DNA from: an uncultured Barnesiella sp.
GTDB lineage: Bacteria; Bacteroidota; Bacteroidia; Bacteroidales; Barnesiellaceae
DNA length: 64,000 bases
NCBI GenBank assembly: GCA_944320015.1
Contig: CALUFO010000001.1
Coordinates: 62,001 to 126,000, forward strand
Direction of reading: 5' to 3'
Shown here: in pieces, positions 516-30,108 of the stretch
How positions within the stretch are numbered: the first letter of the stretch is position 1
Layout of the letters: each line of letters opens with the position of its first letter
Notes under the pieces: generated by a model
What the model was told of the DNA's origin: nothing
The model's input: the letters and a program-made list of their open reading frames with translations, nothing else
Databases searched by the model: none
Program-made: the position numbers and the translations under genes

Positions 516-558
516 AACCGGCCCCGTTTGTCGAGTAGGCAAGCGGGGCCGGTTTTAT
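516..558. terminator. Bidirectional terminator between fabI and the convergent virion-like operon
   Basis: Perfect 11-bp inverted repeat AACCGGCCCCG (516-526) / CGGGGCCGGTT (544-554), followed by a T-run on the plus strand and preceded by an A-rich stretch that gives U's on the minus strand. It can serve both the fabI transcript and the minus-strand operon, whose stop codon is at 558-560. Confidence 0.85.
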
Positions 559-2849
559 TATTCGTCGGCCTCTGGTTCTTCGCCGTACACCTCGTCGTAG
601 AATCGTTTATAGCGTTGCCATTCGGGGTCGTTTTCCCACAAATACCGGTAGGCTTCGGGGCTTGATTCGGAGAGCGGGATCCCCAACATCTCCCGGCTGG
701 CCTGCTGCCGCCGCATTTTTCGTCTCATTTCGGAAATCGAGTCGTCGCGTTTCAAGGCGTCTCGGGAGCGAATAATCATACTGCGTATTTCGTTCTCGGA
801 AAATTTCAATCCCGGCATGAATATGCGGAGCATGTTTCGGAGGTCGCCTGAGATGCGTCTCCAAGCGGCAGAGGATACTCCTTTGCTGGCCAAGTCGGCC
901 AAATACTCTTCGGCGTCTTTTTTGCGAGCCGTCCATGAATTTCCCCTTAGCTTCCATTCGGCCGGCATGGACCGGTACACTTTCATCAGGAAGTCGTCTT
1001 TGAAATAGGAGTCGCCCAAGAAGAGTGCGTCGAGTCCTTGATGGCCTACGGCTTCGTGCAACAAGACCCGTTGAAGGCTTTCGTAGTTGGGGATGTTGTC
1101 GAGAACGACGCCTATCTCCCCATTGCCGTGGTTAAAGAATCCCCCTATTTTCCCGCCGCCCCTCTTTTGAGACAGGAGCGAGGCGGGGAGGTCCGATTCG
1201 TGTTCATACACGATGACATTGTCGAGTCCCATGCGCTCGGCCAAGTCTTTGACCATTCGATATTTACCCCGGGTAGACATGCCTCGCCATGCGGTATCTT
1301 TGTGAGGGTCGGGGATAACCGGGCCGAGCGGGTCGGGTTCGTCTATTTCTTTGGCGATGCGTTGGTTGCTCCGGTATTCCTTTATCGAGAACGAGCGAAT
1401 CATATCGGGCTCGACACGCTCGATTTCGAGGGTGTTTTTCCCGTCGGGCGATAGTACCGTGGCGATTTTGGATTGAGGGTCGTAGTCGAGGACTTCCCAA
1501 GCGACTCCGTCGCGTTTGAGCACGGCGATAGATTCTTGCCTGTCGCGACGCATATTCCGCTTTCGGCGGTTGACGACACGGCCAGCACCTCCGACAGCGG
1601 CGCCGGTGACACCTCCCGTCCACATGCTGGTGGTGGCGTTTTGCAGAACCGATTCGAGCGTGGGGTAGTTCTCGGGTTCGTTATAAATCGTGGTGGCCAT
1701 GTCGTGAGCTACCGAGTTGAGGGCTTCGACCGAACCACTGGTGAGGGCGTCGTTGAAAGTTCCCGCGATGAGTCCCGATTTGTCGGTTTTCGATAGGTTG
1801 GCCATGAGCTTTTTTATCTCCGATTGGGCTGCGTCGTTTTTGAGGATATTTTTCTTGAAATAGTCCGACGCCCGTTTCTTTACTCCCGATTTCAGATTTT
1901 TGAGATAGCGGCTTTGCAGTATGGTGTCGAAAAGCAGGTCGGCTCCCATACAGATAGCCACAAACCCGAATCGTTGGCTGTTGGACAATTTTTGTCCGGT
2001 TTCTTGTTCGAAATTGTCCAGTTCCATTTGAGCCTGAGCGTGGCTTTCGGCTACCGACGAAGCGACATTGGCCGCACCGACAGCCGCCCCGGCCGGGGCG
2101 GCTAAGGCTCCGGCGGCTAAGGGGAGTCCCCATCGTGCGATGTTGGCGGCCATTTCGCCTACCGAAGCCCAGCCTTCGGTCTCGGGGAAGGCGTTTTCGG
2201 TGGCGCGGGCTTCTTCCATGATGCGCCGGCCTTCGTTTCCCCATTTGGCGGTCTCGGAGAGGCTATGGGTTATCTCGTCGCCTAACAGTCCTTCGTCTCG
2301 CAGACGACGGTACTCTTTCAATCCCTTTAACTCGATGCTCGATTGCTCGGAAGCTCCCTGTTCCAGATTGTTGCGTAGGGAGTCTTCCTTTTGTTGCAGC
2401 TCGGCTTCGCTGCTCTTTTGGTATTCGGGGAGGTGTTCCAGCGCCGAGCTGGCGGCGTCCGGCATTTCGTTGTCGGACAATTTGTCCTGTATGTAGCCTC
2501 GCGAATATTTCAAGTCGTTCCAAATGCGTTCCCCGGCCAAGTTTATTCCCTCGGTCAACGATTTCAATTTGCGAGGCTCCCCGGGAGGCGTGTTCGGTTC
2601 GGGGTTAATAGGATAATCGGGTTTCAGCGGAATGGGAGTTTCGTGCTTCGGTGAGAAAGGCGTCGTATTTGTATTTTCGCCCGGTAGAGGTACGGTATAT
2701 GAAGGGATTCCGTCGTTTTCTTCATCGTCTTCTTCATTGCCTTCTACACCGGCTTGCTGTCCATACAACTTTTGTAGGAAGGGATTCACCAAATCCCAGC
2801 CGTATATTCCGTAATCTTCGTTGAGGAAGTCTGTTGTTGAGTGATTCAT
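558..2849 (-). CDS. Large phage internal-virion / ejection-like protein with HEAVGH metalloprotease-like motif
   Basis: 763 aa, no signal peptide. Order of regions: an acidic, proline-rich N-terminus (to about residue 95); a helical charged section; a long Ala/Gly-rich hydrophobic stretch (about 235-270) and further amphipathic segments; a second Gly-rich hydrophobic patch followed by a basic run (about 405-430); then a C-terminal region with LLHEAVGHQG at about 596-605, where His598, Glu599 and His602 or 603 resemble an HExxH zinc site, and DAEEYLADLA about 40 residues later, a possible third ligand. Such mosaics of membrane-active segments and small enzyme domains are typical of podovirus internal virion proteins injected with DNA. 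It is the last gene of a three-gene operon (21 bp after its upstream neighbour). The frame is intact. Exact function is inferred; the metalloprotease activity is not established. Confidence 0.6.
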   Translation of the reverse strand: MNHSTTDFLNEDYGIYGWDLVNPFLQKLYGQQAGVEGNEEDDEENDGIPSYTVPLPGENTNTTPFSPKHETPIPLKPDYPINPEPNTPPGEPRKLKSLTEGINLAGERIWNDLKYSRGYIQDKLSDNEMPDAASSALEHLPEYQKSSEAELQQKEDSLRNNLEQGASEQSSIELKGLKEYRRLRDEGLLGDEITHSLSETAKWGNEGRRIMEEARATENAFPETEGWASVGEMAANIARWGLPLAAGALAAPAGAAVGAANVASSVAESHAQAQMELDNFEQETGQKLSNSQRFGFVAICMGADLLFDTILQSRYLKNLKSGVKKRASDYFKKNILKNDAAQSEIKKLMANLSKTDKSGLIAGTFNDALTSGSVEALNSVAHDMATTIYNEPENYPTLESVLQNATTSMWTGGVTGAAVGGAGRVVNRRKRNMRRDRQESIAVLKRDGVAWEVLDYDPQSKIATVLSPDGKNTLEIERVEPDMIRSFSIKEYRSNQRIAKEIDEPDPLGPVIPDPHKDTAWRGMSTRGKYRMVKDLAERMGLDNVIVYEHESDLPASLLSQKRGGGKIGGFFNHGNGEIGVVLDNIPNYESLQRVLLHEAVGHQGLDALFLGDSYFKDDFLMKVYRSMPAEWKLRGNSWTARKKDAEEYLADLASKGVSSAAWRRISGDLRNMLRIFMPGLKFSENEIRSMIIRSRDALKRDDSISEMRRKMRRQQASREMLGIPLSESSPEAYRYLWENDPEWQRYKRFYDEVYGEEPEADE

Positions 2850-2869: not shown

Positions 2870-3361
2870 TTAGTTCGAAAATCTGTTGCCGAGATATTTG
2901 GTAAGGATACAAGCCTGCTTTTTGGGGAATCCGATGGATATCAGCAAGTTGAATATATGGTGCTTGTTCTCGAATCCGTTATGCCCGGCACGAATGGCTT
3001 TTCGCAATACAGCCTCGTTTATGGAGGGGCAAGATTGTGAAATCTTGTTTCGGTTGGTGAGAAAACTTTTCCAAAGCAAATAGTTGTAATATCGTTTTTC
3101 TTTTTCGGAGAGAGTTCTCGGAATCCATATTTCGGTTACACGCATGTCGATTGACTCTTCCGGCGTGTGCAGAAGGGTCAATAGTTCGGACAATGCCTCT
3201 ATTTGCTCATGGGCATGAGCCGAATGTCTGCCTTTTTCTTTCTTTAAAGAGCCGATGAGCATTCGGCAAGCCTCCAAGAAATTTTTCCCTTGACCGGTGT
3301 AGTCGGTCAAAGATTTTGACGATAAGGAGGTCGAAGTTTCTGTTGATGAGGTATGCTTCAT
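2870..3361 (-). CDS. Hypothetical protein of the virion-like operon
   Basis: 163 aa, not recognised. It is soluble, basic, with a Ser/Thr-rich first 20 residues and a predicted mostly helical body; there is no signal peptide or membrane segment. It sits between the two virion-like genes with gaps of 16 bp (to the gene at 3378) and 20 bp (to the gene ending at 2849), so it is almost certainly co-transcribed with them. Its position between two internal-virion-like proteins suggests another virion or assembly factor, but nothing in the sequence itself shows this. The frame is intact and codon use is like its neighbours. Confidence 0.6.
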   Translation of the reverse strand: MKHTSSTETSTSLSSKSLTDYTGQGKNFLEACRMLIGSLKKEKGRHSAHAHEQIEALSELLTLLHTPEESIDMRVTEIWIPRTLSEKEKRYYNYLLWKSFLTNRNKISQSCPSINEAVLRKAIRAGHNGFENKHHIFNLLISIGFPKKQACILTKYLGNRFSN

Positions 3362-3377: not shown

Positions 3378-3872
3378 TTAGTTGAACAATTTTTTTAGAA
3401 AGTTGAAGTTGTTGAATGTCTGTCCCAGAATATTGTTCTTGTAATTGGACTTTGCCGGTTGGTATAGCTCTTCCAAGGCATTGCGCGCCGACAGATAGTT
3501 CTGGAGCGCGTTCTCTTTCCATGAAGTCGCATAGCTGGCTACTTGGCTTACGGCGTTTCCATAGGATTGATTCTGGACCTTTTGGGCGGCCGTGACGGCT
3601 TCGGGGGTGGCTCCCGATATGCTCGCCCGGTTTTTCAGGGTCTTGGTTGTCATCATCATTTGGTCGCGCAGATTGCCGAGCAGCCCTCTTATGTCGGAGC
3701 GGTCGAGCAAATTGCTGTAATAGGAGCGATTGAACAGGGTGTTCAAATTTCGCAACTCTTGGTCATACCGGTTTTGTCGCGCTTGCAACTCTTTCTGTGC
3801 TTGGGCATTCTCTTTTTGGGCATACAGATAGCTCCCTAATAGGGGAAGCGTCGTTGAAAATAGATTTAACAT
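3378..3872 (-). CDS. Small podovirus-type internal virion (ejection) protein, putative
   Basis: 164 aa from the ATG at 3870-3872. I prefer this start over in-frame upstream starts because the upstream part overlaps the promoter. It begins with a short hydrophobic stretch (LFSTTLPLLGSYLYA), followed by a long Gln/Ala/Asn-rich helix (about residues 20-50) and further helices, ending in an Asn/Phe-rich tail. Short Ala/Gln-rich helical proteins with an N-terminal hydrophobic patch, encoded directly before a giant internal protein, resemble T7 gp14-type or P22 gp7-type ejection proteins that form part of the DNA-delivery channel. The family match is by shape and context, not by a diagnostic motif. 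It is the first gene of the operon and is preceded by the shared CAATCCTGCCA-N26-TTTG promoter. Confidence 0.55.
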   Translation of the reverse strand: MLNLFSTTLPLLGSYLYAQKENAQAQKELQARQNRYDQELRNLNTLFNRSYYSNLLDRSDIRGLLGNLRDQMMMTTKTLKNRASISGATPEAVTAAQKVQNQSYGNAVSQVASYATSWKENALQNYLSARNALEELYQPAKSNYKNNILGQTFNNFNFLKKLFN

Positions 3873-3889
3873 AATCTTCTGTTTTTGGT

Positions 3890-3908
3890 GATATTTGTCG
3901 CAAATATC
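3890..3908. promoter_or_regulatory. Palindrome overlapping the -7 region of the virion-like operon promoter
   Basis: Perfect inverted repeat GATATTTG-TCG-CAAATATC covering the TTTG of the proposed -7 element. A dimeric regulator bound here would cover the transcription start. Operator function is inferred. Confidence 0.45.
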
Positions 3909-3941
3909 GACCTCTCGACAGGCCAAATCGTGGCAGGATTG
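3901..3941 (-). promoter_or_regulatory. Shared virion-regulon promoter, copy 1
   Basis: On the minus strand CAATCCTGCCA (3941-3931) is followed by exactly 26 nt and then TTTG (3904-3901), 28 nt before the ATG at 3872. The same arrangement precedes the portal gene (10887-10927) and the tail-hub gene (30068-30108). The TGCCA box takes the place of the usual Bacteroidota -33 TTTG element, set about 2 bp further upstream. Confidence 0.65.
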
Positions 3942-7503: not shown

Positions 7504-8688
7504 TTAGTAGCGGGGGAATGGCACAGGCCGGTTTTGCTTAATCGACTCTTTGGAGCGGGGTGTTACCGCGGCCCATGTAGCCATATCGGCCAGTGTGGCC
7601 GGATAGGACTCCCGACCCAGTAGAGCCTCGCCCAGTACTTTCAGCATGATATAATCCATGCCTTGGTGATGCCCGTCGTAGAGTAGAGCCTCCTTTTCCC
7701 AGCGTTGCCAAAAACGGTGTTTATATTGTTGTATATATTTCTCATCGGGTTCCCAGTCTTCCGATGGACTTACCCCGTCGATGTAAATCGCTTTTTTCTC
7801 GGCGTTCCAAATCCCTTTGGTTCCTTGCACTTCGTAGTTGAGGGAACGGGGGCGGGGCAGGGTGGTGTCGTGCAGCAGGGTAATTTGCGTCCCCGAATCG
7901 GTTTGCAGGATCGAAGTGACCACGTCGCCCATCTCGAATGTGCGGTGAGCCTCGTCGCAATCGGCTCCCTTGCGGCGGGCGATGCAGGCGCGCAGTCCTA
8001 CCCCCGGGGCGGTGGAGAATGAAGCGATTGTCTTGATATGGTCGGTGCGATTGACGCCGAGAAACATGCAAAGAGGTGCCAGTCCGTGAGTCGGGTATAA
8101 ATCGCCGTTCTCGGTTTCGTAGTAGTGGGAACGCCATTCCGATTCCGACCCGTTTTTGGGTCCGAAGTTTCCTTCGTTGTCAACGAGAATATAGGTGAGG
8201 TCGTGCCTGTATCCGCCTTGCAGAAAAACCAACTGTCCGAACACGCCTGCCTGTACCATGTTGTTTATGGCCAGAATATCATCTCTGAAAAGTGTGTTTT
8301 CGAGGGGGAATACTTCTTTTCCGCTTTGCCGGCTTTGGGCGATGATATCGGGATATTCATCGTTGTCCAACGCCCCCTTTACCTCTATGGCCACATGGCA
8401 GCCTGCTCGCAGGGCATTGATGGCTTGTGCTTTGTGAAGATGCCACGGCGATGCGATGATTACAAGGTCGGGCTTGGTCTCGTCCAGCATTCTGAGGTAA
8501 TCGTCTGTCCCCGAATGATAGATTTGCGGTAACACTTTTCCTTGAAACAGTTGTGCGATTGTTTCGGGTAGTTTGGGCGATATATCGCTGACAGCGATGA
8601 TATCGAACGAGTCGATGTGTTGCAGGAGCGATATTAAATATCTACCCCTATATCCGGCTCCAATGACGGCTGTACGGATCTTTTCCAT
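7504..8688 (-). CDS. Gfo/Idh/MocA-family oxidoreductase, GH109-like
   Basis: 394 aa from the ATG at 8686-8688; the start is fixed by the N-terminal Rossmann strand beginning directly after it (AVIGAGYRG, a GxGxxG dinucleotide site). The second strand region IIASPWHLHKAQAINALRAG is typical of the family. In place of the common EKP motif it has EVKGALDNDE, and further on FPLENTLF, GVFGQLVFLQGGYRHDL and DLYPTHGLAPLC, which match the NAD+-dependent GH109 glycosidases (alpha-N-acetylgalactosaminidase type) better than ordinary sugar dehydrogenases. There is no signal peptide, so it would act in the cytoplasm unless exported otherwise. It is monocistronic. The substrate is not known from the sequence. 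Confidence 0.8.
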   Translation of the reverse strand: MEKIRTAVIGAGYRGRYLISLLQHIDSFDIIAVSDISPKLPETIAQLFQGKVLPQIYHSGTDDYLRMLDETKPDLVIIASPWHLHKAQAINALRAGCHVAIEVKGALDNDEYPDIIAQSRQSGKEVFPLENTLFRDDILAINNMVQAGVFGQLVFLQGGYRHDLTYILVDNEGNFGPKNGSESEWRSHYYETENGDLYPTHGLAPLCMFLGVNRTDHIKTIASFSTAPGVGLRACIARRKGADCDEAHRTFEMGDVVTSILQTDSGTQITLLHDTTLPRPRSLNYEVQGTKGIWNAEKKAIYIDGVSPSEDWEPDEKYIQQYKHRFWQRWEKEALLYDGHHQGMDYIMLKVLGEALLGRESYPATLADMATWAAVTPRSKESIKQNRPVPFPRY

Positions 8689-8813
8689 GATGACGCATAA
8701 TGTGTGATAAACCAAAAACTCTATACGAGTATAACCACCGGTAGGCGCGAAGGCAAATGTAGGAACGCTGTTCTTACATTTGAAGTGCCTGAGACGCCTC
8801 CTATATTCTACAA

Positions 8814-8821
8814 CAAATATA
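8814..8821 (-). promoter_or_regulatory. Putative -7 element of the GH109-like gene
   Basis: TATATTTG on the minus strand matches TAnnTTTG; no clear -33 partner is seen. It would give a leader of about 120 nt before the ATG at 8688. Confidence 0.4.
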
Positions 8822-9005
8822 GCGATTATCATTAAAGAATATACGCTCGAGGTGTGTGATATTATCGCCGGAGACGAGTGATTTTAAGTTTTTTAAGACC
8901 TCTTTGCGGGCGATATGAATGGTGGCAGGGCTTGTAGAGCGATCATGCGGCCGGCGGGGAACCAAGTGTTATCACCCGTATCCCGCCGGCTGTGAGTCGT
9001 GTCCC
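8822..9005. other. Intergenic region with GC-rich stem-loop downstream of the portal gene
   Basis: No gene seen. GCCGGCGGGGA (8950-8960) and TCCCGCCGGC (8981-8990) form a strong hairpin about 15 bp after the portal stop codon. There is no T-run after it on the minus strand, so it may protect a 3' end rather than act as a classical terminator. Confidence 0.5.
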
Positions 9006-10862
9006 TCATTGTGCATTCTCGTTTGCCAATGCCGTTCCGGGTTGGTTTTGTCGAATCGCTTGCAATAATTTGTCGGCGAAGGGGAAAGAGCCGTTTTGCA
9101 ATAGCATTTCGAGCGATATTTTGCCGTTTCGGAACAATTCCATGAGGAACTCGTTGGACGCCATTCGCAGCGCCGGAGTCGAAAGCGTTTCGGCGATAGA
9201 GAGGTCAAACTCGGTGTTGCGAACCTCCTCGGGCGTATAGGTCGACGCGTCTTTCCCGCAACTGTTCCCGGCGATGCTTATGTAGCGGTTGTCGGTGTAG
9301 AACTGCTGGATTGTCTTCATGATTTTTATATCCCGGTCTTCCCGGAATGTTTTGAACGATTCGAACAGGTCGAGCAGGTTGGCCGAGGAGTATTGCACCT
9401 GCTGGGAGTATAGCGATGCCGGTGTCCCCGAAGGCGCCGTTTTTCCTTGCATGGCTCCGTGTACGCCCGAAATATCCTCAAACAGCCGCATTTGCAACGA
9501 GAGCATTTCATAAGCTCCCACTTGTGTGGCATTGACCGCTATTTGTTGCGGCATGGGCGAGCCGGGACGGGGGCGGAACAGAATGATTCCGTTGTATTTG
9601 GTCCATTCGTCGGCAATATCCTCGATGGTCATGCCGTTGGGGATTTGATCCTCGGGGAACAGCAATACCCCTTTGGCGCTCGACCCCATGATGAAGTCGA
9701 TCATGGTGATGAGTCGGTTGATGTACCGCTGTTGGTCTATGACATCTTCGACAAACGCATGCACCTCGCCGTCGATGAGCGGATATAGTTTGAACACATA
9801 TGGGTGCTCGCCATGCCAGTATGGAGTCTCTCCTTCGTCCAAAAGGTCGCCCAGTGGCGAGAAGAACCGGTAGTGCCAAGATGGGATTACGCTCCATTCC
9901 GTTTCGATGAGCGGTACGGCATTCTCGTCGATCCCTTTCGAACGGGCTTCGCGCAATCTCTCGTCATTCTCTTTCTCGATGAGCCCGGCCTCTGTGACGG
10001 GGACATGGTAATATTCGCCCGAGCGGAAGTCGTGACAGCTCAGCACTTCGTTGCTTTCGAGTTTCCACACCTCGATTACACGGCACAAATCGGGAGAGGA
10101 GGGCATAAAGAAATCGAGCCGGTCGATAGACTGTGCCGTGAGGTTCTCGAAATTGTGCCGCACGGTTTCGTTATCGGCCTCGCCATAAATGTTGCGCAGT
10201 TGTACCGCCCGGGTTCGGGAGCCGAAAGAGAACCTCGATATGACCTCGGCTATGGTCATGTCGTGTAGCTCGCCGATGAGCGTGCAATCCCAATGCCGGC
10301 TATCCTCCATGGCGTTGAAAAACATGCGGTTCGGATTTATTTCGTCGACCCACACGTCGGTTTTTCCTCGGCGGTAGCCATATCCTATTTTTTGGATACA
10401 GATGCCCGAGATGAGAAACTCTTCCAGCGTGCGGCTGTCGAGTTCCTGCAACCGGTTGTGCTGGTAGGCATATTGAACGGCGGCGCTCATCAGTTCGCCC
10501 AGACTTTGCTCCTGTCGGTCACGGGCAATGCACACCGGCTGGGTTTGGTTGTTGCGGAATTGTCCCAAAACCGCCTTGACCATTTGTCGAATGAGGTTGT
10601 TTTTCAAGGGCACTTTTCCCTGTTCCCGTATATACTCTTCTTCGCTCATGACCCTGCCGTCGGGGAGTTTTATCAAGTCGTTCCACTGTTTCCCGTAGGT
10701 ATAATCTCGGTTCCGCTTGCGTTTGTGCCTGAAATGCTCGATTTCTTCCCACGCCTTTTGAGCCTGTAACAATATGGGATAATGCGACCGCTCTATTTCT
10801 CCGATTTGCCTGCCATTCCCGCTCCCATTTGTCGATAGTGCTTTATACCCATTATTTGCCAT
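9006..10862 (-). CDS. Phage portal protein (podovirus type), isolated from any prophage
   Basis: 618 aa, intact. Portal proteins form the dodecameric ring at the capsid vertex through which DNA is packaged and leaves. Family-like features: an N-terminal helical region with DYTYGKQW; PLKNNLIRQMVKAVLGQFRNN; EINPNRMFFNAMEDSRHWDC; the long-helix region INRLITMIDFIMGSSAKG followed by LLFPEDQIPNGMTIEDIADEW (around 380-425); and the late crown-helix region QVQYSSANLLDLFESFKTF plus REDRD (around 500-525). These resemble portals of podovirus-like Bacteroidota phages. The gene stands alone: 317 bp to the gene downstream and a divergent unrelated gene upstream. No terminase, capsid or protease gene is nearby. 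It carries the shared promoter at 10887-10927. Lack of frameshifts over 1.86 kb argues for selection rather than decay. Confidence 0.85.
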   Translation of the reverse strand: MANNGYKALSTNGSGNGRQIGEIERSHYPILLQAQKAWEEIEHFRHKRKRNRDYTYGKQWNDLIKLPDGRVMSEEEYIREQGKVPLKNNLIRQMVKAVLGQFRNNQTQPVCIARDRQEQSLGELMSAAVQYAYQHNRLQELDSRTLEEFLISGICIQKIGYGYRRGKTDVWVDEINPNRMFFNAMEDSRHWDCTLIGELHDMTIAEVISRFSFGSRTRAVQLRNIYGEADNETVRHNFENLTAQSIDRLDFFMPSSPDLCRVIEVWKLESNEVLSCHDFRSGEYYHVPVTEAGLIEKENDERLREARSKGIDENAVPLIETEWSVIPSWHYRFFSPLGDLLDEGETPYWHGEHPYVFKLYPLIDGEVHAFVEDVIDQQRYINRLITMIDFIMGSSAKGVLLFPEDQIPNGMTIEDIADEWTKYNGIILFRPRPGSPMPQQIAVNATQVGAYEMLSLQMRLFEDISGVHGAMQGKTAPSGTPASLYSQQVQYSSANLLDLFESFKTFREDRDIKIMKTIQQFYTDNRYISIAGNSCGKDASTYTPEEVRNTEFDLSIAETLSTPALRMASNEFLMELFRNGKISLEMLLQNGSFPFADKLLQAIRQNQPGTALANENAQ

Positions 10863-10886
10863 AATTTTTTATTTTTTAGTTTGTTG

Positions 10887-10927
10887 CAAAGGAAGCGGGC
10901 AATGTCGTCGTTTTTATGGCATGATTG
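10887..10927 (-). promoter_or_regulatory. Shared virion-regulon promoter, copy 2
   Basis: Minus-strand CAATCATGCCA (10927-10917), 26 nt, TTTG (10890-10887; extended -7 TTCCTTTG), then 24 nt to the portal ATG at 10862. Same architecture as at 3901-3941 and 30068-30108. Confidence 0.65.
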
Positions 10928-11743: not shown

Positions 11744-11946
11744 AGTTTAAACTCTCCCTCTGTGTTCCCCGTAAGGGGAATATAGGGGGAGTGCCGTAGG
11801 CGAGGGGGTTTTAAACTCTTTTACACCTGTGTTCCCTGCAATCGGCAGGGGAGAGGGGTTGAAAACCAAGAGTTTAAAAACTTGTATATGAAGATAGTTT
11901 AAACTCCTTCTCTGCTTGGCAGTAGCCGAGATAGGCGAGGGAGTTG
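11744..11946. repeat. Cluster of three imperfect palindromic (REP-like) units
   Basis: Three stem-loop units of about 50-75 bp lie between two convergent genes. Unit 1 (11744-11820) has outer arms AGTTTAAACTCTCCCTC and GAGGGGGTTTTAAACTC with an inner hairpin TTCCCCGTAAGGGGAA. Unit 2 (about 11814-11876) has arms AACTCTT / AAGAGTTT and inner CCCTGC-AATCG-GCAGGG. Unit 3 (11896-11946) has AGTTTAAACTCC and GGCGAGGGAGTT. The palindrome AGTTTAAACT occurs exactly at 11744-11753 and 11896-11905. The whole fills the gap between the genes. Confidence 0.6.
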
Positions 11947-11955
11947 CGATTGGGG

Positions 11956-12273
11956 TTAAGCATAGGGCTCGGCGATGTCGCCCGGGCTTAAATAATCGCG
12001 AAGCCATTCATGGGCGTCGCTACTGCCCAGGTCGTCGGCGAAGCCCATATACTCGGCGATAATTTCGAGCGATTCGGGCGACTGCCCGGCAATCGATTCG
12101 GCCACGGCCCAAGCGGCGTCGGCGTCGCCTGCCTGCATTGCCTCCCACAGCGGGCGGTCGATAATGAATTGCCTTTCGCATTCAAAAAACTCGTCCCAGT
12201 GCACGATGTGTATATGCTTGTCGATCACTTCGAGTCGCAGGTAGTTTTGGGGAAATGGATATTCTGGTTTCAT
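11956..12273 (-). CDS. Hypothetical acidic protein downstream of miaA
   Basis: 105 aa from the ATG at 12271-12273; longer in-frame readings would overlap the miaA stop region and add an unlikely Pro-rich N-terminus. It is acidic, with an N-terminal strand-rich part (YLRLEVIDKHIHIVHWDEFFECERQFIID) and a helical Ala-rich second half with repeats of AWAVAESIAG / SLEIIAEYMG type spacing. There is no signal peptide or membrane segment. It lies 49 bp after miaA on the same strand and is probably the last gene of that operon. I do not recognise the family and assign no function. Confidence 0.6.
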   Translation of the reverse strand: MKPEYPFPQNYLRLEVIDKHIHIVHWDEFFECERQFIIDRPLWEAMQAGDADAAWAVAESIAGQSPESLEIIAEYMGFADDLGSSDAHEWLRDYLSPGDIAEPYA

Positions 12274-27430: not shown

Positions 27431-27475
27431 CGGAGAAGATAGTCTGTTGGGCGGCTATCTTCTCCGGCTGTTTTT
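27431..27475. terminator. Bidirectional terminator between GH97 and the tail-hub gene
   Basis: 12-bp perfect arms CGGAGAAGATAG (27431-27442) / CTATCTTCTCCG (27455-27466) followed by GCTGTTTTTA on the plus strand. The convergent minus-strand gene stops at 27474. Confidence 0.85.
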
Positions 27476-30047
27476 AATACAATCGGTTGTTGTCCGAGAT
27501 GATGCGAAAAAGGACATCGACTCCGGTCAGGTGAAAGTCCGAGGCGACTTCCCCCGACAGGACAAGCCTGTAATATCGGTAAACAGGCCCGGTGACGCGC
27601 CGGGACACCAGCTCGGGAATCCGTCCCGAAACGGTCATTTTGTAAATCTGAGCCATTTTGTTTCTCGCATCGTTCCCGCCCCAAAGCGAGACCGTTATGC
27701 CGCCTTCCTGAGCCGAGAGTCTCCAAATCACCTTTTCCCACTTTTGATACCCCTCGCTTTGTAGCGATATGGGTCGTGACATGAGCGCTATCGGCACAGG
27801 TGAGTCGTAGTTCTCTTTTTGCAAATCATAGACTTGCCCCGATGGGGTTTGGGCAAGCAGATGCGACGCGTCGTAAAACAGCGAGGTATAGACTCGGGTC
27901 GAGCGGTACATGTACAACGTGGGGAGATGGATCACCAGCGAGTAGTCGAGCTCGGGTTTGCAACAAACCAACTCTTTCTCTACCGTATTGTAGGCGATGG
28001 AACAGCCCTTGATATAATCCGACAGCGGGGTGGAGTCGTACGCCGATTGTAATAACTCGTAGTCGGTGTGGTGGAACCGTATGGGGTCGTTGTTTTCGTA
28101 GGGAAATTCGTCGAACGATAAAAGCGGCTGTACCTCTGAGCCTCTCAAAATCGAAAGACCCTTTTGGGTATAGAATACAATCGAACCTTCCAGCGGGACA
28201 ATGGGATACCCTTTGGGTATCGATTCCCGGCTCAGTTGGTGTTGGGCGCTGTAACAAGCGCCGCCGGTTCCATTTTGCAGGGCCCAGATACCCTCCTCGG
28301 TAAATAGGTACAGCGGGAACTCGCCAAACTGCCCTTCCGACAGCGCCGCGGTGATGGTCGCTATCCCTGTGATATTGCTGTTCGAGGCCGAGTAGGTTTG
28401 TTCGGCCGGGAAGATAAACGGGTTTTCATATTTCGAGACTCGCAATATGTTGGGTTGCTCGTAAGTGTCGTTGTGGGGCGTGGGTATGGAAAATTCGCCC
28501 GGCGATGAGACCAGTTTCAAGGCGATCGCCGTGAGCGATTCGTCCAGATAGTCGGCTCGGTTTTCATACTCCGAGGGTGTCAAGTCGAAGCTCTTTCGGT
28601 ATATGCCCGTGTTGCTTTTTACGGCAATCTCCATTTTGTAGGCGTTGCTGTCGGGATAAGAGAGAAGCGGTGAGAATTGGTTGCAAAAGTAGTTCAACAC
28701 TCCGCTCCAAACCACTTTGCATTCGCCTCGCTCGGTTTTCAGGGAGGTGCAGATATAAGCCTCGGCCGTTTCGGAGAACTCTTTCCCGGTGGAGAACAGA
28801 CTCAGCGGGAAACCGGGGAACATCTTTTTTTTCAGGTTGGCGAGGTGCAATCGTTTATCATGCACATAGCTCACTTGTGCTCCCGTAGAGAGAAGGGTCG
28901 TGTTGTCGGGCGAGAGAATCTCTTCATGGACGAGTTGGTCGGGGCGTATCTCATGTTCTATTTCATAGGTGTCACCTTCCTTCCAGCCGCTCCAATCTTC
29001 GATAGAGGCTATTTTATAAAAAAGCGGAGCTTGCAAATACTGCTTTTGAATCTCTTTCTTGTCGAGAAACGAGATGTCGCCTTTGAGGTAGAAGGTGATT
29101 GTTTCGTTCTCTTCGATGCGTTCGATAGTAAATTCAAGCCCCTGTTGCTTCTGGTCGGGCTCGAAAATCGTGGTTTCGGGAGCCACAAAAAAGTCGACGC
29201 TTCTCACAATATCTTTCCAGTTATCGAGATTGAGCCGGTGGATATGATATTTGATGCAATAATTCTCGGCGAGGATTTGTCCCCTGTAAGAGCCCGTGCA
29301 AAGGTCGTTGGAGCTTTTCAGCCGTATTTCCAGTTGGCAGGGTTGGATAGGCTCGGGCAACGAAATCATGACCGGTGACGATGAGAATATTTGGCTTCCG
29401 TCGTACAGCGTGACCGCATAGCGTATGAGGACGGGCTGTATGAAGGTGTACTTCTTCCACGCATTTTCCTGTAACTGGAAGAATGCGTTGTAATAAGCGT
29501 CGTTGAAGTAGTTCCTGTCGGCCGTCTCGAGTCGGGTAGGGTTGTAGTAAGTCTCCATGAATGTATATTCGTCGACCCAATAGGCGTCGGTGTATGTGAT
29601 ATGCGGGAAAAACGAAATCTCGGGCATATCGGGCTTCTCTCCCAAAAAGAGGTATTGGTCGTTCTTGTAGAGCAGGTAATAGGTCGTTTCGGAACAAACG
29701 GCGATGAGGGTGTTGCCTATCGATTGTACCGATAGAATCTCTTTGTCTGTCGAGTTGAACAACTGCAAGTTCTTCTTTTCTATCTTTCCGCTCTCTTTTT
29801 CTACCAAGGCTTCGTAGTAAAGCGCGTGTTTCGTGGCGGTGATGTGGTGCTCCCCGTCGTAACAGTTATGGATATACACGAGTGCGCGTTGGTTCCCGGC
29901 CGTGTCGTATAGATATTCGGGAGTCCCCACGGGGACGAGCTCTCCCGATTTTTGTCGCAGGTTCACGATACTTGTGCAGTCTCCCGGCTGTGCCGATGAG
30001 GGCGATGAACGATGGTTCATTCCATTGAATACGATTCTCGATTTCAT
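27474..30047 (-). CDS. Phage tail-hub / DNA-stabilisation-like protein, isolated from any prophage
   Basis: 857 aa from the ATG at 30045-30047; a longer in-frame reading would run through the promoter and the inverted repeat upstream, so I reject it. The N-terminus (RIVFNGMNHRSSPSSAQPGDC, then NLRQKSGELVPVG) matches the opening of podovirus tail proteins that thread the portal exit (P22 gp10 stabilisation protein or T7 gp12 nozzle type). The central part has many beta repeats; FPLYLFTEEGIWAL with IVFYTQKGLSILRGSEVQPLL (around 600-680) is typical of the propeller-like hub fold. The C-terminus (WRLSAQEGGITVSLWGGND, YRYYRLVLSG) is also beta-rich. No signal peptide. It stands alone between GH97 and ppx with its own promoter (30068-30108) and terminator. 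Intact; codon use as neighbours. The subclass of tail protein is inferred. Confidence 0.7.
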   Translation of the reverse strand: MKSRIVFNGMNHRSSPSSAQPGDCTSIVNLRQKSGELVPVGTPEYLYDTAGNQRALVYIHNCYDGEHHITATKHALYYEALVEKESGKIEKKNLQLFNSTDKEILSVQSIGNTLIAVCSETTYYLLYKNDQYLFLGEKPDMPEISFFPHITYTDAYWVDEYTFMETYYNPTRLETADRNYFNDAYYNAFFQLQENAWKKYTFIQPVLIRYAVTLYDGSQIFSSSPVMISLPEPIQPCQLEIRLKSSNDLCTGSYRGQILAENYCIKYHIHRLNLDNWKDIVRSVDFFVAPETTIFEPDQKQQGLEFTIERIEENETITFYLKGDISFLDKKEIQKQYLQAPLFYKIASIEDWSGWKEGDTYEIEHEIRPDQLVHEEILSPDNTTLLSTGAQVSYVHDKRLHLANLKKKMFPGFPLSLFSTGKEFSETAEAYICTSLKTERGECKVVWSGVLNYFCNQFSPLLSYPDSNAYKMEIAVKSNTGIYRKSFDLTPSEYENRADYLDESLTAIALKLVSSPGEFSIPTPHNDTYEQPNILRVSKYENPFIFPAEQTYSASNSNITGIATITAALSEGQFGEFPLYLFTEEGIWALQNGTGGACYSAQHQLSRESIPKGYPIVPLEGSIVFYTQKGLSILRGSEVQPLLSFDEFPYENNDPIRFHHTDYELLQSAYDSTPLSDYIKGCSIAYNTVEKELVCCKPELDYSLVIHLPTLYMYRSTRVYTSLFYDASHLLAQTPSGQVYDLQKENYDSPVPIALMSRPISLQSEGYQKWEKVIWRLSAQEGGITVSLWGGNDARNKMAQIYKMTVSGRIPELVSRRVTGPVYRYYRLVLSGEVASDFHLTGVDVLFRIISDNNRLY

Positions 30048-30067
30048 AAGGCAGAAAAAATTTCCGG

Positions 30068-30108
30068 TAAAAGTAATACCGGTCTGCCTCGCTTTTTTGG
30101 CATGATGA
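30068..30108 (-). promoter_or_regulatory. Shared virion-regulon promoter, copy 3
   Basis: Minus-strand TCATCATGCCA (30108-30098), exactly 26 nt, TTTA (30071-30068; extended -7 TACTTTTA), then 20 nt to the ATG at 30047. Matches the copies at 3901-3941 and 10887-10927. Confidence 0.65.

Follow-up and report, generated by a model that had tools for sequence, protein, structure and literature searches.

The alphaproteobacterial gene transfer agents (GTAs; RcGTA, CcGTA and BaGTA) are sets of domesticated phage structural, packaging and lysis genes that lie in the chromosome without a phage replicon, occupy more than one locus and are controlled jointly. In RcGTA the loci number five or more, one of them a large structural cluster (PMC7947584), and in CcGTA about 18 promoters are controlled by GafY (PMC11150451). 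Their large head-tail cluster comprises 17 genes in RcGTA. The FpGTA of Faecalibacterium, which also resides in a gut commensal and is built from podovirus-like genes in unlinked operons with a separate lysis operon, differs in having two operons only (10.5 and 5.5 kb) and in belonging to the Bacillota; in the same work lateral transduction is seen in Bacteroides, and no Bacteroidales GTA is reported (PMC12946183). A description of a Bacteroidales GTA was likewise not found in the open-access literature searched. Linked relatives of the genes described below are carried by the temperate Bacteroides phages BS-TP4 (PQ571277) and BF1-TP2 (PQ571263), which have homologous portal, large terminase (TerL), major capsid protein (MCP) and head genes and a nozzle-like gene, together with a homologous endolysin in BS-TP4; BKO1-TP3 (PQ571269) matches in the portal only.

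The portal gene studied here is located in a 64,000-nucleotide stretch of an uncultured Barnesiella sp. genome (G000), referred to below as the window. It is probably part of a domesticated GTA-like particle system whose genes occupy seven or more places in the Barnesiella chromosome and share a dedicated promoter. This system is apparently ancient and dispersed, and undescribed in Bacteroidota. In contrast to the alphaproteobacterial GTAs, it has at most five particle genes per locus, with portal, TerL and lysin each alone, and it has another ancestor (short-tailed, with a P22-type portal and an SU10-type capsid), another phylum and another promoter; it is filed here as GTA-like and not as a proven GTA. 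BS-TP4 and BF1-TP2 differ from it in turn, being phages of about 65 kb with an integrase and linked structural genes (replication, recombination and repressor genes are also annotated in BS-TP4), without the promoter and outside the dispersed clade. The portals of the temperate Bacteroides phages are 44-47% identical to that of the window. The particle genes in the window are the following.

9006..10862, minus strand: P22-type portal gene, 618 codons, ATG start, intact, no internal stop
3378..3926, minus strand: small virion/ejection-type protein gene, first in a 3-gene operon, likely start at 3872
2870..3361, minus strand: 163-aa protein gene of the 3-gene operon, with a counterpart at the same place in G062 (6e-7)
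558..2849, minus strand: 763-aa protein gene of the 3-gene operon, its product related to giant phage virion proteins but shortened
27474..30047, minus strand: nozzle-like virion protein gene, adjacent to the portal in four other families as well as in phages

The portal protein belongs to the P22-type family, since its match to PF16510 (P22_portal, Pfam; 3.9e-41, residues 34-610 against positions 4-550 of 594) spans the family profile in full length. The same product matches the portal family PHROG 156 (7e-75), and chains of solved portal structures are matched by the portal profile (1e-9). A genome search found the gene to be single-copy in the 2.6-Mb genome. One of its flanks contains OMP, miaA, DPP-IV, ruvA and sprA, and the other GH109, hppA and a WG-repeat gene. 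An earlier note on this DNA had described the gene as an undamaged orphan matching the local base composition. Its integrity is clear from the 618 open codons, and its composition (GC 0.527, GC3 0.66) is indeed that of the DPP-IV gene (0.52 and 0.66; GC of the window, 0.50). The orphan status holds only for the immediate surroundings, where both flanks are of housekeeping type and no terminase or capsid gene is seen near the portal, but not beyond them, as partners lie elsewhere in the genome and other virion-type genes within the window. The order of the locus is kept in other Barnesiella (OMP-miaA-DPP4-ruvA-sprA on one side, hppA-WG-fabI on the other), with same-locus portals that are 84-90% identical between species. 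Because its relatives occupy the same place in other Barnesiella and its composition is neighbour-like, the portal is a fixed chromosomal gene and not a component of a present-day prophage. The GH109-type gene (window 7504-8832) in the portal-hppA interval is present or absent depending on the Barnesiella species, so that an insertion hotspot adjoins the portal. Repetitive intergenic sequence with open frames like ARRTNQEAPPLLSG was seen at window 11747-12007 and at L030 12447-14152 and recurs in G000 and G003; it probably represents a family of non-coding repeats resembling small genes.

The genome is a metagenome assembly of 33 contigs with 95% completeness, in which a fragmented or misbinned phage contig might be taken for a chromosomal locus. 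This explanation has a vanishingly small probability, as the portal is placed inside a 369-kb contig with host synteny and the same arrangement is found in the 5-contig genome G003; the single-contig, closed genome G008 and the Barnesiella records An55 and An22, not labelled as MAGs, which show it as well, exclude a binning artefact.

The roles of nozzle and ejection protein are assigned to the remaining genes of the window from gene position and weak similarity. The first product of the 3-gene operon is similar to a phage gene of like position (L013:6494-7108, 1e-15; BF1-TP2 gp70). The 763-aa protein contains an invariant, metallopeptidase-like HEAVGH...E motif and is a probable ejection or internal protein. 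The product of 27474-30047, which matches BS-TP4 gp26 (1e-46), PHROG 32516 (7e-48) and, weakly, the virion structural family PHROG 3287, is a probable tail nozzle or stopper; its gene adjoins the portal in G032, G088, G069 and G062, and a profile search retrieved no solved structure for it. For the nozzle-like protein and the 763-aa protein, AlphaFold models were too poor (mean pLDDT of 38 and 44, respectively) and were not used. The stretch neighbouring the window (contig 1, 22-62 kb) contains no particle genes.

Terminase and capsid genes were searched for with profiles built from the linked relatives, namely BS-TP4, BF1-TP2 and several virus contigs. As the earlier note had anticipated, the partners of the portal are encoded elsewhere in the genome. 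A single intact TerL is placed on contig C5 at 125-127 kb (E 2e-251); this gene needed the family-specific profile and was missed by the Pfam Terminase_6N/PF03237 search of the genome, which gave no match, and no second terminase was found either with PF03237 or with the TerL profile A1. The ATPase part of TerL matches phage T4 gp17. All 16 dispersed TerLs retain Walker A, motif C and the nuclease D, E and DD residues, and among the conserved sequences are the Walker A-like KARQWGGST and ESTANGTG. They also share the change T572M (L021 TerL numbering), which is absent from the seven phage sequences of profile A1 and, being close to the nuclease domain, may bear on a lost packaging specificity. 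Small genes directly before TerL in G069, G062 and G129 are small-terminase candidates only, and none was assigned in G000. One phage TerL (L020:5836-8916) has a long insert, probably an intein, next to the Walker B region of its ATPase domain.

The MCP gene is found at 61-62 kb of contig C5 (E 2e-147 with the capsid profile), and its product is an SU10-type, HK97-fold capsid protein according to the profile match (SU10_MCP, 9e-50). It lies in a five-gene head operon encoding a gp10-like protein, MCP, a gp12-like protein, a 367-aa fibre-like protein and a gp13-like protein. The gp10-like product is a probable scaffold and the gp12-like product a putative adaptor-like protein; the 367-aa protein, the long relatives of which match tail-fibre families, is a probable fibre.

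Alignment of the upstream regions in nine species revealed a block common to all units, TATnAnnnTGCCAnAAA followed by TTTGC. Three sites with this pattern are present in the 64-kb window, where 0.08 would be expected.

10886..10925, minus strand: promoter of the portal gene, TGCCATAAA ... TTTGC, 0 mismatches
3900..3939, minus strand: promoter of the 3-gene operon, 1 mismatch
30067..30106, minus strand: promoter of the nozzle-like gene, TTTAC variant, the same in other species

In 9/9 Barnesiella species each of the seven units has TGCCA and TTTGC, or sequences close to them, with constant spacing, and the distance from TGCCA to TTTG is exactly 31 bp at all 34 unit-by-species sites. The suggestion that the terminase and capsid genes carry the promoter of the portal was thereby borne out, each being preceded by it with exact spacing. 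Nine genomes were scanned in full, with up to one mismatch allowed, for a pattern whose design drew only on the sites of portal, operon, head, TerL and nozzle; each genome had 9-20 sites (1-10 with the reversed-pattern control). In the closed genome G008 the only four perfect sites are those of the portal, the 3-gene operon, the head operon and terL. We propose that the unlinked units may be co-expressed from this dedicated promoter.

The scan led to two genes that were absent from its design. One encodes an Amidase_3 endolysin (N-acetylmuramoyl-alanine amidase; 4e-25, and 2e-30 to the BS-TP4 endolysin) and occupies the same place in four species. The other, before lysS, encodes a holin-like membrane protein scoring 20.7 against the Pfam holin, just below the cut-off of 22.2; its homologue in family f81 is above the cut-off (Phage_holin_4_1, 1.3e-6) and is placed directly behind the head operon together with a peptidase-type lysin. 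A phage-type lysis pair in the regulon is a requirement of a particle-releasing system. At least eight extra regulon promoters were observed in G003 (L133, L134, L135, L138, L142; L140, L141, L143), each before a small gene; the encoded proteins form two related families (155-210 and 209-232 aa) that match no known function and are perhaps small terminases or decoys. The similarity of the 155/209-aa proteins to small terminases is only E ~0.02, and this assignment is not claimed.

The exact TGCCA pattern is absent upstream of the units in other families, and an unbiased gapped-word search there was uninformative. A related element, YATnnCAT with TTTR 33 bp downstream, was recognized at the dispersed units of families f81 (4/4), f55 (4/4), f18 (2/3) and f62 (1/4), a count that is descriptive, since the consensus was found by inspection and derived from some of the sites scored. 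None of the linked phages tested gave an 11/11 match or an equal score, and in family f25 this consensus yielded no site. The strong part of the evidence for this candidate promoter in the other families is the fixed spacing across unrelated flanks.

Scattered genes with host-like composition could also be the remnants of a decaying prophage that were dispersed by rearrangement, each of them persisting by chance or in a new job unrelated to the others. This is very unlikely, given that every unit has the one promoter with its exact spacing, and given the state of the genes themselves. Portal, TerL and MCP contain no stops or frameshifts across 9 species, and their median dN/dS (Nei-Gojobori) is 0.059, 0.10 and 0.034, respectively, values of 0.03-0.10 that are to be compared with host controls of 0.055 (DPP4), 0.037 (ruvA) and 0.024 (hppA); dS is close to saturation in many species pairs, and the rows for gp10 and miaA were left out owing to wrong reading starts. 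In the closest pair (G001-G008) the ratios are 0.036 for portal, 0.057 for TerL and 0.014 for MCP. One intact portal, one TerL and one MCP, unlinked, were found in each of the nine Barnesiella species, sampled with one genome per species. The view of the earlier note that selection keeps the portal thus agrees with the dN/dS check across the nine species (median 0.059, no internal stop), and the frequent loss or pseudogenisation against which it had set that view is not seen at species level, an intact copy being kept in 9/9. Neither stops and frameshifts nor relaxed selection nor patchy presence, the marks of a decaying prophage, were encountered in these species. Moreover, the three unlinked genes behave as all or none over 148 Bacteroidales genomes, of which 12 contain portal, TerL and MCP together and 136 none of the three. 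Unrelated new jobs are insufficient as an explanation because they leave the shared promoters and the shared loss unexplained.

Nine of the 12 positive genomes, from six families, contain dispersed sets. The sets of G023 and G132 are linked and prophage-like. G029 has its TerL away from a linked portal-capsid pair, and G129, where a dispersed set occurs alongside a linked phage-type set (C32), serves as an internal control. In maximum-likelihood trees the dispersed copies, from at least six families, form one clade apart from the phages, with support of 100/99 for portal and for TerL, 99/97 for MCP and 100/100 for the concatenation, and the clade held after four further virus-collection relatives had joined the trees. 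Chromosomal sites are shared as well: the head operon stands divergent beside the fumarase gene in f1 (8/9), f62, f55, f25 and f81, and the portal-nozzle pair beside sufS in f25, f55 and f62. The old phage order survives in pieces in the other families, with the portal beside the nozzle and TerL beside the ejection operon. The simplest history that these sequences suggest is one domestication in a common ancestor followed by vertical descent and a progressive separation of modules that went furthest in Barnesiella. We consider it likely that the Barnesiella set is a GTA fully taken apart, with no head-tail cluster and with an own address and promoter copy for each unit, and that a single onset of dispersal preceded the split of at least six Bacteroidales families.

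Phage-inducible satellites and defective prophages are likewise host-resident subsets of phage genes, and satellites keep subsets of packaging genes. Such a subset would also be expected of a split prophage, or of the parts of a satellite, that a helper phage mobilises, and linked relatives do exist as prophages or phage contigs (G129:C32, G023, G132). Those elements are clustered and mobile or decaying, whereas the Barnesiella units are dispersed, immobile and intact. Distances of tens to hundreds of kb separate the units, none of which was seen next to an integrase or replication gene, and instead of a mobile cluster with an integrase or att sites the same chromosomal sites were found across species and families; G000 has no other terminase (PF03237, A1), and the dispersed clade is separate from the linked phages. 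An origin of this kind is therefore highly improbable, even more so than prophage decay.

A domesticated GTA-like system is the best explanation of these features. It shares with GTAs intact, chromosomal, phage-derived portal, terminase, capsid, tail and lysis genes, as well as vertical inheritance and purifying selection (same loci, dN/dS, one clade). Comparison of the neighbours of every unit with the phage loci showed only particle and lysis homologues, with no integrase, repressor or replication gene beside the units. The predicted products provide for procapsid, portal, motor, short tail, ejection and lysis, without a replicon, and by analogy with GTAs there is a good chance that the set can package and release chromosomal DNA. 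We infer a regulator, particle production, packaging of host DNA and its transfer; a report of a particle, packaged DNA or transfer for the dispersed system was not found in the literature. The regulator would bind the TGCCA-type element about 30 bp upstream of a -7 box at all units and activate them jointly, in what is probably a minority of the cells. A procapsid of MCP and scaffold would then form around a dodecameric portal, on which TerL would dock to package chromosomal DNA, the presumed cargo since no phage replicon remains. The short-tailed particle would be completed by nozzle, fibre and ejection proteins, and holin and amidase would lyse the cell and release it. As the seven loci are spread over the chromosome, no phage-size particle could carry its own gene set.

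A domesticated phage particle might instead be selected for a job other than DNA transfer, for example the killing of relatives or protein delivery, with a few cells lysing. The lysis genes within the regulon would suit such a particle, as would the regulon promoter seen in two species before an 800-aa, tailspike-like protein of pectate-lyase fold (L131:3867-6305, L137:2832-5207; none was seen in G000 with the patterns used), and DNA transfer is itself deduced from genes. Nevertheless, we find this unlikely, since a protein-only device would need no terminase, and the DNA motor retains all catalytic motifs and is under purifying selection together with the portal and a full head operon.

If the GTA-like reading is true, an abundant gut commensal genus and several related families hold a built-in device for sharing chromosomal DNA, the Bacteroidota gain their first GTA lineage, and a dedicated regulon can replace the linkage of virion genes for very long periods. 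The system also lends itself to asking under what circumstances genes need to be clustered, since the ancestral phage order is still visible in genomes such as G069 and G062 and its dispersal can be followed stage by stage. The promoter is a starting point from which to look for the regulator and for the condition that induces the units. Phage module annotation and prophage finders both depend on clustering and therefore overlook a system that is fully dispersed. A 10-kb contig of a virus collection (L145, IMGVR_UViG_2681813420_000004) carries a 56%-identical portal without a terminase and with a lysozyme-like gene adjoining, and is possibly another dispersed set filed as viral.
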